From the NCBI RefSeq assembly GCF_012932915.1, contig NZ_VCQU01000001.1, forward strand, positions 1,054,001 to 1,118,000: a DNA stretch of 64,000 bases, in the 5' to 3' direction. This DNA comes from Antrihabitans stalactiti. GTDB taxonomy: Bacteria; Actinomycetota; Actinomycetes; Mycobacteriales; Mycobacteriaceae. Each line of letters starts with the position of its first letter. Positions within the stretch are counted from its first letter, which is position 1. The translations under genes were made by a program, and so were the position numbers. Positions 3,433 through 53,526 of this stretch are shown here, piece by piece. The notes under the pieces were generated by a model. The model ran no database searches, was not told where the DNA came from, and worked only from the letters and a program-made list of their open reading frames with translations.

Positions 3433-3496
3433 CCTTGTGAGTCTTTTCGGAGTCAATCTGTTGGAGCTTCTCCGGACTCCGAAAAGACTCACAAGG
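3433..3496. repeat. Family A palindrome, copy A1
   Basis: Two perfect 22-base arms (3433-3454 and 3475-3496) flank a 20-base loop. The core arm is GTGAGTCTTTTCGGAGTC, where other copies have TTTTTGG. This copy lies inside a tandem gene run, directly after the ilvC stop at 3500-3498 and before serA. The 20-base loop is unique: copies A2-A4 have loops of 0-2 bases. It could form a strong intercistronic hairpin that separates ilvBNC from serA-leuB. Confidence 0.9.
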
Positions 3497-3497
3497 G

Positions 3498-4511
3498 TTA
3501 GGCAGTTTCGGTGATCGGACGATCGACCCAGCTCATGAGGTCACGCAGCTGCTTGCCGACGACCTCGATGGGATGCTCGGCGTTTTCCTTGCGGAGCTGC
3601 TCGAGCTCCTTGTTGCCGCCTTCGACATTGGCGACGAGACGCTTGACGAAGGTGCCGTCCTGGATGTCGGCGAGGATCGCCTTCATGCGCTCCTTCGTGC
3701 CTGCGTCGATGACGCGCGGGCCCGACAGGTAGCCACCGAATTCGGCGGTGTCGGAGACGGAGTAGTTCATGCGCGCGATGCCGCCCTCGTACATGAGGTC
3801 GACGATCAGCTTCAGCTCGTGCAGGACCTCGAAGTAGGCCATCTCCGGCGCGTAGCCAGCCTCGACCATGACCTCGAAACCGGTCTTGACCAGCTCTTCG
3901 GTACCACCACAGAGCACGGCCTGCTCGCCGAAGAGGTCCGTCTCGGTCTCTTCCTTGAACGAGGTCTTGATGACGCCCGCGCGGGTGCCGCCGATGCCCT
4001 TGGCCCAGGAAAGGGCAAGTGCCTGCCCCTCACCCTTGGGGTCCTGGTGGACCGCGATGAGCGCGGGAACACCCTTGCCGTCGACGAACTGACGACGGAC
4101 GAGGTGGCCGGGGCCCTTCGGTGCGACCATGGCGACGGTGACGTTGGCCGGAGCCTCGATCAGCTTGAAGTGGATGTTGAGGCCGTGTCCGAAGAAGAGT
4201 GCGTCGCCGTCCTTCAGGTTGGGCTCGATGTCTTCCTTGAAGATGGCGGCCTGCGCGGTGTCGGGCGCGAGCACCATGATGACGTCGGCCCATTCGGCGA
4301 CCTCCGCCGGCGTGCCGACGCCGAGACCCTGCTCTTCGGCCTTGGCGCGCGACTTCGAGCCCTCTTTCAGGCCGACGCGGACCTCGACACCGGAATCGCG
4401 CAGGCTCAGCGAATGCGCGTGGCCCTGGCTTCCGTAGCCGATCACCGCGACCTTGCGGCCCTGGATGATCGACAAATCGGCATCGTCGTCGTAGAACATC
4501 TCGACTGCCAC
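3498..4511 (-). CDS. ilvC: Ketol-acid reductoisomerase (NADP+)
   Basis: Isomerises and reduces acetolactate or acetohydroxybutyrate to the dihydroxyacids of valine and isoleucine synthesis, using NADPH and Mg2+. The 337 residues are the length of class I (short) KARI. The Rossmann motif [17 protein letters not shown] lies near residues 24-40. The C-terminal knotted domain has the metal-binding Asp/Glu of [13 protein letters not shown]. The GTG at 4511 is preceded by GAAGGGA at good spacing. Starting instead at the upstream ATG (4604) would add 31 residues that overlap the end of ilvN in another frame. Third gene of ilvBNC, 31 bases after ilvN. Confidence 0.97.
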
Positions 4512-4542
4512 TTGGTTGGTTCCCTTCTCTATCTGATGAGTA

Positions 4543-5046
4543 CTAGCGAGTTGCTGTGATCGACTTCGGACCGCGCCCGACCGCGACCACTCCGGATTGC
4601 ACAATCTCCCGAATTCCGTACGGCTCCAGCATTCGCAACAGTGCGTCGAGCTTGGACCGAGTTCCGGTCGCCTCGACGGTCAACGCATCGGGCGACACGT
4701 CGATGACCTTCGCGCGGAAAAGCGTAGCCGCCTCGATCACCTGGGTGCGCACGCTTGCGTCAGCGCGGACCTTGACCAAGATCAGCTCGCGCGCGACCGA
4801 CGCATCGGCATCCTGCTCGACGATCTTGATCACGTTGACCAGCTTGTTGAGCTGCTTGGTGACCTGTTCCAACGGCGAGTCCTCGACGGTGACGACGATG
4901 GTCATGCGGGAGATGTCGGGAAGCTCAGTGCCGCCGACCGCGAGCGATTCGATGTTGAACCCACGGCGAGAGAAGAGTGCCGCAACTCGCGCGAGCACGC
5001 CAGGCTTGTCCTCGACGAGCACGCTCAGGGTATGGCTGGTCCTCAT
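4543..5046 (-). CDS. ilvN: Acetolactate synthase small (regulatory) subunit
   Basis: Regulatory subunit of acetohydroxyacid synthase, which activates IlvB and confers valine feedback inhibition. The 167 residues match the usual actinobacterial length. The N-terminal ACT domain begins [20 protein letters not shown], with the conserved N-x-E-S-L in [10 protein letters not shown]. The C-terminal domain ([23 protein letters not shown]) is typical of IlvN/IlvH. The ATG at 5046 overlaps the ilvB stop as ATGA, so the two subunits are likely translationally coupled and made in stoichiometric amounts. Confidence 0.97.
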
Positions 5047-6971
5047 TCGGCCGCGTCCTGTCCGATGGCGTTGTCCATTGCTGCATGGATGACCGCTGGT
5101 TCGGCGACGGTCTCGTCGTCGTCGAAGAACGGGCGAATGCCACGCGCTGCCTGGATTTCGTCGTTGCTGGTGCCTGCGGCGACCATCGGCCACACCTGAG
5201 CATCCGTGCTCACGATGAAGTCGATCACCACCGGCTTGTCGTTGATTGCCTGCGCCTCACGGATTGCCGCTTCGACGTCTTCTTGCTTCTCCACCCGAAT
5301 ACCGTGGCAGCCCAAGGCTTCTGCGAGCTTGACGAAGTCCGGGATGCGGAGCGTGTGAGTGCCGAGGTTCGTCTGGCTGTAGCGCTCGCCGTAGAACAGC
5401 GTCTGCCACTGGCGGACCATGCCGAGGTTGCCGTTGTTGATGAGCGCAACCTTGATCGGAATACCTTCGACGGCGCACGTCGCAAGTTCCTGGTTGGTCA
5501 TCTGGAAGCAGCCGTCGCCGTCGATCGCCCAGACCTCGGCATCGGGACGGCCCATCTTGGCGCCCATCGCGGCCGGGACCGCGTAACCCATCGTGCCCAG
5601 ACCACCCGAGTTGAGCCACGTACGCGGCTTCTCGTAGCGAACGAACTGTGCAGCCCACATCTGGTGCTGGCCGACGCCGGCACAGTAGATCGCGTCCGGA
5701 CCGGCAAGCCTGCCGACGGCGTCGATGACGTATTCGGGCGACAACATGCCGTCTGTCGGCTCGTCCCAGCCCAGGGGGTACTGCTTGCGAACGCCCTCCA
5801 AGTAGGTCATCCACTTGGCGATTTCGATTCGCGAGCCGGTTGCGAGGTCGGCCCGGATGGCCTCGATCAGCTCGACGATGACCTCTTTGCAGTCGCCGAC
5901 GATCGGCACGTCCGCGTACCGGTTCTTGCCGATCTCGGCGGGGTCGATATCCGCGTGGATCACCTTGGCATTGGGTGCGAACGAGTCGAGCTTGCCGGTC
6001 ACACGGTCGTCGAAGCGGGCTCCGAGCGTGATCAGCAGGTCGCTGCGCTGCAGCGCGGCCACCGCGGCGACCGTGCCATGCATGCCGGGCATGCCGAAGT
6101 TCAGCGAGTGGCTGTCCGGGAAGCTGCCCCGCGCCATCAGCGTCGTGACCACGGGAATTCCAGTGAGCTCGGCCAGTGCGAGCAGCTCGCGCGACGAATC
6201 GGACTTGATGACGCCGCCACCGACGTAGAGCACGGGCGACTTGGCATCCATGATCAGTCGCGCTGCTTCACGAACCTGCTTGCCATGCGGCTTGGTCACC
6301 GGACGGTAGCCGGGCAGTCGCATCTCCGGCGGCCACGAGAACGTCGTCTGCGCCTGGAGCACGTCCTTCGGGATGTCGACCAGGACAGGTCCGGGCCGAC
6401 CGCTCGACGCCAGGTAGAACGCCTCCGCCATGATCCGTGGGATGTCGATACCGTCGGTGATCAGGAAGTTGTGCTTCGTGATCGGCATCGTGATGCCTGA
6501 GATGTCGGCTTCCTGGAACGCGTCCGTGCCGATGGACGGGCGCGGCACCTGACCGGTGATCGCGACGATCGGCACCGAATCCATGTGCGCGTCGGCGATC
6601 GGGGTGACGAGGTTAGTTGCACCTGGTCCGGACGTCGCCATGCACACGCCGACCCGTCCTGTCGCCTGCGCATAGCCGGTCGCGGCATGACCCGCGCCCT
6701 GCTCATGGCGGACGAGGACGTGGCGAACCTTGTGCGAATCGAAAAGCGGATCGTAGACCGGAAGAACTGCGCCGCCCGGAATGCCGAAGACGATGTCGAC
6801 GTCGAGTTCCTCGAGCGCACGGACCACCGACTGCGCGCCCGTTACCCGCTCAGGGGCAAGCTGACGACGAGGCGTCGTAGGGGGCGTGGCGGGAGCCGCG
6901 ACAGACGGCTGACCTGCGGGGGGCGTCGGCCTGCGGGTGGCTGGCCCCGGCCGTGCGGTGGGTGCGCTCAC
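5043..6971 (-). CDS. ilvB: Acetolactate synthase large (catalytic) subunit
   Basis: Condenses two pyruvates, or pyruvate and 2-oxobutyrate, in the first common step of branched-chain synthesis, with ThDP, Mg2+ and FAD. About 642 residues. A Pro/Ala-rich N-terminal extension of about 40 residues precedes the ThDP-binding domain starting at [14 protein letters not shown]. The catalytic Glu is in [10 protein letters not shown]. The C-terminal ThDP motif is [13 protein letters not shown] followed by INNGNLGMV. The GTG at 6971 has AGAAGGAAG about 5 bases upstream. Expression is probably controlled by the leader peptide and attenuator at 7030-7145. Confidence 0.97.
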
Positions 6972-52892: not shown

Positions 52893-52926
52893 CTGCATTC
52901 CTTCGCCATTCTGATCGGACTCATCT

Positions 52927-52966
52927 ATTGTCAAGTGACTTGCCTTTTATTGTCAAGTGCCTTGCC
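52927..52966. promoter_or_regulatory. Tandem operator-like repeats for the MarR regulator
   Basis: ATTGTCAAGTGACTTGCC (52927-52944) is repeated with one change at 52949-52966, with a start-to-start distance of 22 bases, about two helical turns. Each unit contains an inverted repeat: CAAGTGACTTG is perfectly symmetric, and CAAGTGCCTTG has one mismatch. The spacing and symmetry suit two dimers of the adjacent MarR protein bound on one face of the DNA. Confidence 0.7.
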
Positions 52967-52986
52967 TAAAATGGAGGGGAAGCCTA

Positions 52987-53472
52987 GTGCCGTCGTTCGA
53001 CGAGATGTCGCCGACCGAGATAAGAATCCACCGGGAGAGTGTCTTGCTGCGGCTACTGCTTCGAGTCTCGCAGATCGAGACCGAACAACTGGCCGGCCGA
53101 TTGCACGCACTCGGCCACGAGGCCGTGCAACCGAGCCACATTCGACTGCTCGGCAACGTCGACACCGAGGGCACCCGACTGATCGTCCTTGCGGAACGGG
53201 TCAGCACAACCCGCCAAGCGGTCAGTCAGTTGGTCAGCGAACTCGAGCGCCGCGGCTACGTCGAGCGCACGCCCGATCCAGACGACGGTCGCGCGGCACT
53301 GGTCCGCCACACGCCCGTCGGTCGGCGACTGTTGAACGACGCGCTTCGCGAGATGGCCGACATCGAAGCCGGGTATGAGAAGGCCATCGGCCGCGACGGG
53401 ATGTCGACGCTCAAACACGTATTGCGAACGATCGCCGACACTGCTGATCCGACCTCCACCCTCGGCCCATAG
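52987..53472 (+). CDS. MarR-family transcriptional regulator
   Basis: 161 residues. The dimerisation helices flank a winged helix: SHIRLLGNVDTEGTRLIVLAERVSTTRQAVSQLVSELERRGYVERTPDPDDGRAALVRHTPVGRRLL, with the D-x-R of the wing (DPDDGRA). The GTG at 52987 has GGAGGGG about 9 bases upstream; an in-frame ATG at 52957 would overlap the operator repeats. It probably represses itself and the divergent alpha/beta hydrolase through the tandem 22-base-spaced sites. The ligand is unknown. Confidence 0.93.
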   Translation: MPSFDEMSPTEIRIHRESVLLRLLLRVSQIETEQLAGRLHALGHEAVQPSHIRLLGNVDTEGTRLIVLAERVSTTRQAVSQLVSELERRGYVERTPDPDDGRAALVRHTPVGRRLLNDALREMADIEAGYEKAIGRDGMSTLKHVLRTIADTADPTSTLGP

Positions 53473-53480
53473 CCGACCTG

Positions 53481-53526
53481 CTCGTGAGTCTTTTTGGAGT
53501 CTATAGACTCCAAAAAGACTCACGAG
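53481..53526. repeat. Family A palindrome, copy A4 (perfect, supplies a stop codon)
   Basis: A 46-base palindrome with perfect 23-base arms and no loop: CTCGTGAGTCTTTTTGGAGT, then CTA, mirrored. It lies at the convergent junction of the MarR and acyltransferase genes. The TGA of the acyltransferase (53522-53520) is inside the right arm. Confidence 0.94.

Follow-up and report, generated by a model that had tools for sequence, protein, structure and literature searches.

What are the four near-identical palindromes that occur in a 64,000-nucleotide stretch of Antrihabitans stalactiti DNA (contig NZ_VCQU01000001.1, positions 1,054,001 to 1,118,000; the whole stretch is called the window), three at convergent gene junctions and one between two tandem genes? 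A preliminary description, made from the letters of the window, had suggested a dispersed element resembling repetitive extragenic palindromic (REP) sequences or miniature inverted-repeat transposable elements (MITEs), and named an RNA-processing hairpin and a protein-binding site as further candidates. We tentatively read the palindromes, at slightly less than an even chance, as members of a REP-like family of 40-bp 3′-end hairpins of the Mycobacteriales that is inherited in place and homogenised by ectopic copying; the function, the copying process and its agent are what we infer.

Coordinates headed C1 are positions on the contig that contains the window (1,174,072 bp). The sequence read from this genome (G000) amounts to 1.25 of 6.76 Mb, namely this contig and further pieces, and genome-wide counts are those of pattern searches. 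Genes on C1 were called with a simple codon-usage script, giving 1,090 unreviewed calls that miss some real genes. Three further genomes, G001 (A. stalagmiti) to G003, belong to the same genus.

A dispersed family of constant length

All four palindromes were located at the places given for them. In register, the unit of this family, called A, is GTGAGTCTTTTNGGAGTC - 4 bp - GACTCCNAAAAGACTCAC, i.e. 18-4-18 or 40 bp, and no strand is assigned to any copy. A2 (21465..21504, centre CCTG), A3 (52041..52080, centre CAGG) and A4 (53484..53523, centre TATA) each have 40 bp and lie at convergent junctions, where the latter two run into the stop codon of the gene called on their right. A1 (3437..3492) measures 56 bp, with arms GTGAGTCTTTTCGGAGTC around a 20-bp centre, and begins 5 nt past the stop of the ketol-acid reductoisomerase gene, which is followed in tandem by a phosphoglycerate-dehydrogenase-like gene. 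Gene calls and Pfam thereby confirm the earlier placement of three copies at convergent junctions and of A1 in the ilvC-serA gap. Centres of 0, 2, 2 and 20 bases had been proposed; the 20-bp centre of A1 stands, whereas the other three are one 4-bp centre of which the outer or all bases are sometimes paired. None of the curated Rfam families matched the window at gathering score.

The arm has eight matches in the window against 0.03 expected and, with up to three mismatches, 216 forward and 217 reverse matches in the whole genome (reversed control 2 and 0). The pattern GTGAGT-N28-ACTCAC, which leaves the interior free and does not include its pairing in the test, occurs at 196 sites, the reversed control at none, and these genome-wide copies bear out the suspected dispersed family. 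Of 37 family A copies matched in C1, 35 have exactly 40 bp, one has 39 bp and one, A1, has 56 bp; their centres are CCTG/CAGG in 22 cases, CATA/TATG in five, CAGA/TCTG in five, TATA in four and long in one. The arms form 36 pairs, with five unpaired arm matches, and inspection of the flanks of these pairs by eye indicated that they are usually lengthened by CTC/GAG, itself paired.

An unsupervised inverted-repeat scan of C1 returned 83 palindromes, against three in one first-order Markov control sequence, and led to a second family, B (GTGCGCGAGTTTCACCCC-4-GGGGTGAAACTCGCGCAC and variants), which is likewise 18-4-18. Its pattern, GTGCGY-N28-RCGCAC, again with a free interior, was found at 135 places genome-wide and at six in the reversed control. 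Many of the B copies listed are imperfect palindromes whose arms differ from each other; some lie close together (e.g. C1:85873 and 85931). The window holds seven copies of B or B-like type, all of 40 bp and without assigned strand: B at 14727..14766 (16/18 pairs), 32485..32524 (14/18) and 42732..42771 (18/18, with GTGCGCGAGTTTCACCCC arms), B-like elements at 676..715 and 16397..16436 (14/18 each) and at 25718..25757 (15/18; inside a called gene, a call that may be wrong), and a degenerate B copy at 55715..55754 (C1:1109715), a pattern match.

The spacing of the ends is strict. Within 80 nt in C1, GTGAGT and ACTCAC are separated by 28 nt in 36 cases, by 20 nt in six, which are inner parts of B copies, and by 2, 24, 27, 44, 47 and 62 nt once each. 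For GTGCGC/GCGCAC the peak is again at 28 nt (19 cases; no other spacing more than three times), and in A. stalagmiti GTGAGT/ACTCAC spacings of 28 nt occur 23 times, of 55 nt twice and of 3 and 29 nt once each. The element is a frame with ends GTG[A/C]G[T/C] and a fixed length of 18 bp-4 nt-18 bp, the interior of which is free but largely self-complementary.

The idea that symmetry itself is kept is supported by arms that covary and by interiors that differ yet pair. In the 100 copies with an NCTG centre that were listed (of 127), the variable arm position is paired in 73, where independent arms predict 37.2; none of 20,000 shuffles reached 73, a signal that the shared descent of the copies inflates. 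Certain unpaired combinations recur at distant loci among these 100 copies (C-arm/TCTG/A-arm three times, T-arm with A-arm ten times), as if whole elements had been copied. Twenty copies were chosen among those listed for five genomes outside the genus (two belonging to g62, two from other genera of f14 and one from g6); they have 6-12 of 12 interior pairs, with at least 10 in 16 of the 20.

Position relative to genes

Placement was assessed for the 78 elements in C1 and 80 kb of contig C3 whose ends are GTG..CAC and whose arms form at least 13/18 pairs. Thirty-four lie at convergent and 38 at tandem junctions, two at divergent junctions and four in a called gene. Among the C1 junctions of at least 30 bp, an element is carried by 27 of 91 convergent, 29 of 317 tandem and 2 of 190 divergent ones (convergent above tandem, p = 3e-6; tandem above divergent, p = 8e-5). 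In tandem gaps 27 of 32 elements are closer to the upstream stop than to the next start, with medians of 10 versus 42.5 nt.

The 34 elements of A. stalagmiti are distributed over convergent (14), tandem (14) and divergent (4) junctions and called genes (2). Five of its 28 convergent or tandem elements overlap the stop through their GTGA, and 22 start 12-19 nt past the stop. Those that were read are mostly preceded by a small hairpin such as GCGGCTTCGCCGC. A separate observation is that in several places, e.g. L163:10040-10115 and L166:9998-10073, the palindrome is set between small GC-rich hairpins (GGCGGCTTCGCCGC type), one on each side, which vary in sequence and keep their pairing, and within an outer TAG...CTA that can act as a stop codon. 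In other genera, 18 of 20 one-kb pieces have a long open reading frame that terminates at most about 35 nt from the element, a weak indication in high-GC DNA and without a control.

Sites and interiors in related genomes

The four window junctions were compared with A. stalagmiti only. The junction of A1 has a palindrome of different sequence there, GTGCGCGGTTGCCGGGTC in place of family A; some 0.8 kb of other sequence interrupts that of A2, and the syntenic region lacks the part that contains A3 and A4. On a larger scale, C1 was compared with 665 kb of A. stalagmiti, and 229 reciprocal best hits yielded 138 junctions with kept adjacency, of which four carry an element in both species, five in G000 only, one in A. 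stalagmiti only and 128 in neither (p = 4e-5; p = 0.012, one-sided, when restricted to non-divergent gaps of at least 40 bp). This count demands exactly 40 bp, so that A1 is not among the four; with A1, both species have a palindrome at five sites. At all five, a small number and from one contig, the family differs between the species. Besides A1 these are C1:1127386, with family A versus GTGCGCGGTCGACGGGTC in A. stalagmiti and a downstream flank that can still be aligned, and C1:69460, 113867 and 1132683, with family B versus the A. stalagmiti A type, 113867 being a weak B copy (13/18 pairs). Sites are shared between the species beyond chance, and the interior differs in place. The view that arms are conserved while centres differ is correct within a single genome; from one species to the other the arms differ altogether, whereas length, outer ends and symmetry stay. 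The arm is neither a chance word in the rest of the genome nor part of palindromes found unchanged at the same junctions in A. stalagmiti.

With up to two mismatches, the exact arm matched more than once in only two of 121 genomes, G000 (215+212) and A. stalagmiti (7+5). The pattern GTGAGT-N28-ACTCAC, searched in 251 genomes of the family, gave matches in 51 and none in the rest (reversed control at most 2): beside G000 with its 196, there are 132 in A. stalagmiti, 91-158 in five g23 genomes, 49 in G048, 28 in G057, 25 in G038 and at most 20 in others. In 298 genomes of the order 38 had a match and the rest none, the highest counts, 192, 185, 140, 137, 111, 105 and 89, coming from a second family, f14. 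Among the matches listed, each copy-rich lineage has its own interior; in single-match genomes such as G272, G036 and G053 several matches have an unpaired interior and look, by eye, like chance. Since the g23 element matches four Rhodococcus plasmids at 81-85%, g23 was taken as Rhodococcus. The A2 palindrome was not found on plasmids and phages, nor the G386-type element among plasmids, and 12 single-arm matches in viral contigs are about the number we estimate for chance. Named sequence stretches holding the palindrome pattern number 17, all from Antrihabitans stalagmiti YC3-6, with records of the window's own genome possibly left out. A separate case is locus L258 (G025:C14:93440-95100), where an insertion of about 1.3 kb with a transposase-like open reading frame interrupts a 40-bp palindrome and has about 13 bp of that palindrome repeated on either side.

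A dense comparison was made within the Rhodococcus-like clade, at one site (S3) and one further place. At S3, behind a TAG stop, the element is present in nine of nine genomes, eight of which are 83-95% identical to G277 over the stretch. On average, pairs of genomes differ by 0.058 and 0.047 in the flanks and by 0.022 in each outer arm, against 0.169 in the left inner arm, 0.194 in the centre and 0.231 in the right inner arm, the inner arms diverging 3-5 times faster than the flanks. Some of the variants found in the inner arms (A, C or G at position 11; T or C at position 13) were also listed for other places in the clade, which suggests that copies may have exchanged sequence rather than drifted freely. 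At the second place G277 has element - two genes - element, and in G337 and G319 a single element is bordered on the left like the first G277 copy and on the right like the second, an arrangement that recombination between copies would give. The two-gene segment of G277 raised the possibility that elements are cassette boundaries of gene gain and loss; this was not supported in Antrihabitans, where adjacency is broken no more often at elements than elsewhere (convergent 8/9 versus 35/42, tandem 6/14 versus 80/181; p = 1 each).

In G313 the palindrome is absent at this otherwise conserved junction, which makes it a candidate empty site, and in the Rhodococcus-like genomes a unit of 57-58 bp, consisting of the left mini-hairpin and the palindrome, is repeated. 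Both observations speak for the main rival explanation, a non-autonomous mobile element (MITE-like or transposed as a hairpin) without host function, moved in trans and tolerated mainly behind stop codons, whose fixed ends and length would be the requirement of the enzyme. It would also account for the same unpaired, asymmetric combinations at distant loci, for the five and one sites confined to one species versus four shared ones, and for a family A copy at C1:103240 with a 16-bp direct repeat, GCGTCGATGATGGTGC, on each side, a possible long target duplication. However, no other target duplication was recognised in the flanks read, one site is retained in nine genomes, and at shared sites the interior changes while the site stays. 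A comparison of empty sites and target duplications with A. stalagmiti covered 21 gene ends, at which the flanks were mostly too diverged. Moreover, PF01797, the Y1 transposase domain of the REP-associated tyrosine transposase (RAYT) type, has no match in the four genomes of the genus, as compared with five positives among 14 control genomes; on this result a RAYT/REPIN system was rejected for the genus. Altogether we regard the mobile element as a rather unlikely explanation.

Competing readings and comparison with known systems

According to the reading of a REP-like family homogenised in place, copies would overwrite each other by ectopic gene conversion or template switching, between arms as well as between loci, and this mutual overwriting might keep the element set of each genome alike. 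A DNA- or RNA-binding factor measuring the 40-bp frame would preserve length and ends, the transcribed hairpin may mark or protect mRNA 3′ ends on both strands, and new sites would come from some mobilising activity. A broader form, which we consider doubtful, is an order-wide super-family of 'ruler' hairpins, in which a conserved machine of the Mycobacteriales would read hexamer ends and length while ignoring and rewriting the interiors, producing species 'dialects' at several hundred gene ends with inherited sites.

Several points weigh against the homogenised 3′-end hairpin. Its conversion step is deduced from the pattern, and the constant length could partly be inertia, paired indels being rare. 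The four divergent and two intragenic copies among the 34 of A. stalagmiti do not fit a 3′-end element, and the Rhodococcus plasmid pDK1 carries a degenerate copy (14/18 pairs) inside an annotated non-ribosomal peptide synthetase gene, which breaks the rule. Two co-oriented genes, which we take to be sufS-sufU-like, enclose one copy; in A. stalagmiti their gap measures 9 nt, which makes a strong terminator awkward at this place. In G000, 53 of 72 convergent and tandem copies lie at most 10 nt past a called stop or overlap it; in 12 of these 53 the gene terminates on the TGA within the GTGA of the element. An E. coli terminator placed a few bases past a gene was almost fully repressed, according to PMC4824070. 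Finally, at the tandem sites of G000 and A. stalagmiti, mismatches read in transcript orientation comprise 24 G-U and 19 A-C (p = 0.54). As G-U is not favoured over A-C, compensatory selection at the RNA level, considered as a cause of the pairing, has no support.

This last result would be expected if the elements were sites of a DNA-binding protein, acting as a roadblock terminator, in the nucleoid or as an insulator, that reads two hexamer ends 28 bp apart. Conserved ends and length around a free interior agree with such a protein, but it would not need a self-complementary interior, as is found with at least 10 of 12 pairs in 16 of 20 copies, and we consider this reading improbable.

The stop-proximal position also bears on the view that these are ordinary intrinsic terminators, alike by coincidence. 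Their location at gene 3′ ends and the high stability of the hairpins favour it: RNA folding of five window elements (four A, one B) gave -34 to -46 kcal/mol with z of -7.4 to -11.1. However, at least six T in the 12 nt downstream were seen in only one of 92 flanks, compared with 8 of 342 windows in the control. Sequence downstream of the hairpin is not rich in T; therefore the elements are not U-tract terminators, in agreement with the preliminary description, which had not considered them standard terminators. In addition, terminators require neither near-identical copies nor an exact length nor fixed hexamer ends. The plain intrinsic-terminator reading is not supported, because a U-tract is missing and most copies sit too near the stop codon in the light of PMC4824070; we judge such a coincidence very improbable.

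Among known repeats, REPs are the closest. According to Di Nocera 2013 (PMC3733652), stems of the GTAG and CGTC super-families measure 5-13 bp and carry their GTAG or CGTC tag unpaired, and CGTC REPs are without a dedicated transposase. The present elements resemble REPs as described there in being short, palindromic and extragenic, present in tens to hundreds of copies, located behind coding regions at convergent and unidirectional junctions and species-specific; with CGTC REPs they share the lack of a dedicated transposase, as far as PF01797 was not found in the genus. They differ in their 18-bp stem, in register, and in that the stem ends are paired, with no constant unpaired tag in the flanks of the 36 pairs read. 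Because of the 18-bp stem, the paired foot and the absence of PF01797 from the genus we did not file them as GTAG or CGTC REPs. A word search of the same text gave no occurrence of actinobacter, Rhodococcus, Mycobacter, Amycolatopsis and Streptomyces, and one passage mentions M. tuberculosis in connection with repeats that lack conserved motifs at their ends. Passages on bacterial stem-loop repeats (PMC2267715) and spaced motif pairs (PMC5217627) describe dispersed palindromes, some at convergent junctions, and mention no frame of constant 40-bp length whose interior is exchangeable; CGAAA(N)19TTTCG, the Mycobacterium motif given in these passages, is unlike our elements in sequence.

DNA uptake sequences of Neisseria and Haemophilus, mentioned in the same passages, are similar as short genus-specific words in inverted pairs behind genes. 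They are also abundant as singles and within genes, whereas arms are rarely single here. Integron attC sites have fixed ends and a variable, self-complementary interior and lie behind genes, which is a further likeness. The elements differ from attC in their core words, in having no extrahelical bases and in occurring as single dispersed sites. We recognised no description of the family in the open-access literature searched, though a published one may exist, and found no occurrence of four exact element words there. The 40-base elements behind stop codons in some actinobacterial groups are apparently a large, undescribed set.

Other inverted repeats were encountered outside the 40-bp frame. 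A third palindrome family of 62-74 bp, with a CAATTG centre and TTGTTCGACGCA-like arms, is found at 592-653, 37782-37843 and 38882-38955 of the window (no strand assigned) and at C1:1034404. Dispersed copies of GCATGAATGTCACATT...AATGTGACATTCATGC, an inverted repeat whose loop has 11-21 nt, occur at C1:131517, 157885 and 985272, and a similar one in G002 (L141:10113). A further type, CGAGCGCATAG...CTATGCGCTCG, is present in both species, at C1:236613 and 751686 and at L152:13076 of A. stalagmiti.

The usual explanation of bacterial palindromic repeats is RAYT transposases. Here a copy-rich family with strict length, fixed ends, kept symmetry and an interior that differs in place exists in a genus in which the search for that enzyme gave no match, and its many natural replicates can help to identify whatever reads the length of the frame and whatever makes the copies alike. 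The elements provide a species-specific genomic signature, and they bear on how transcripts end in high-GC actinobacteria.

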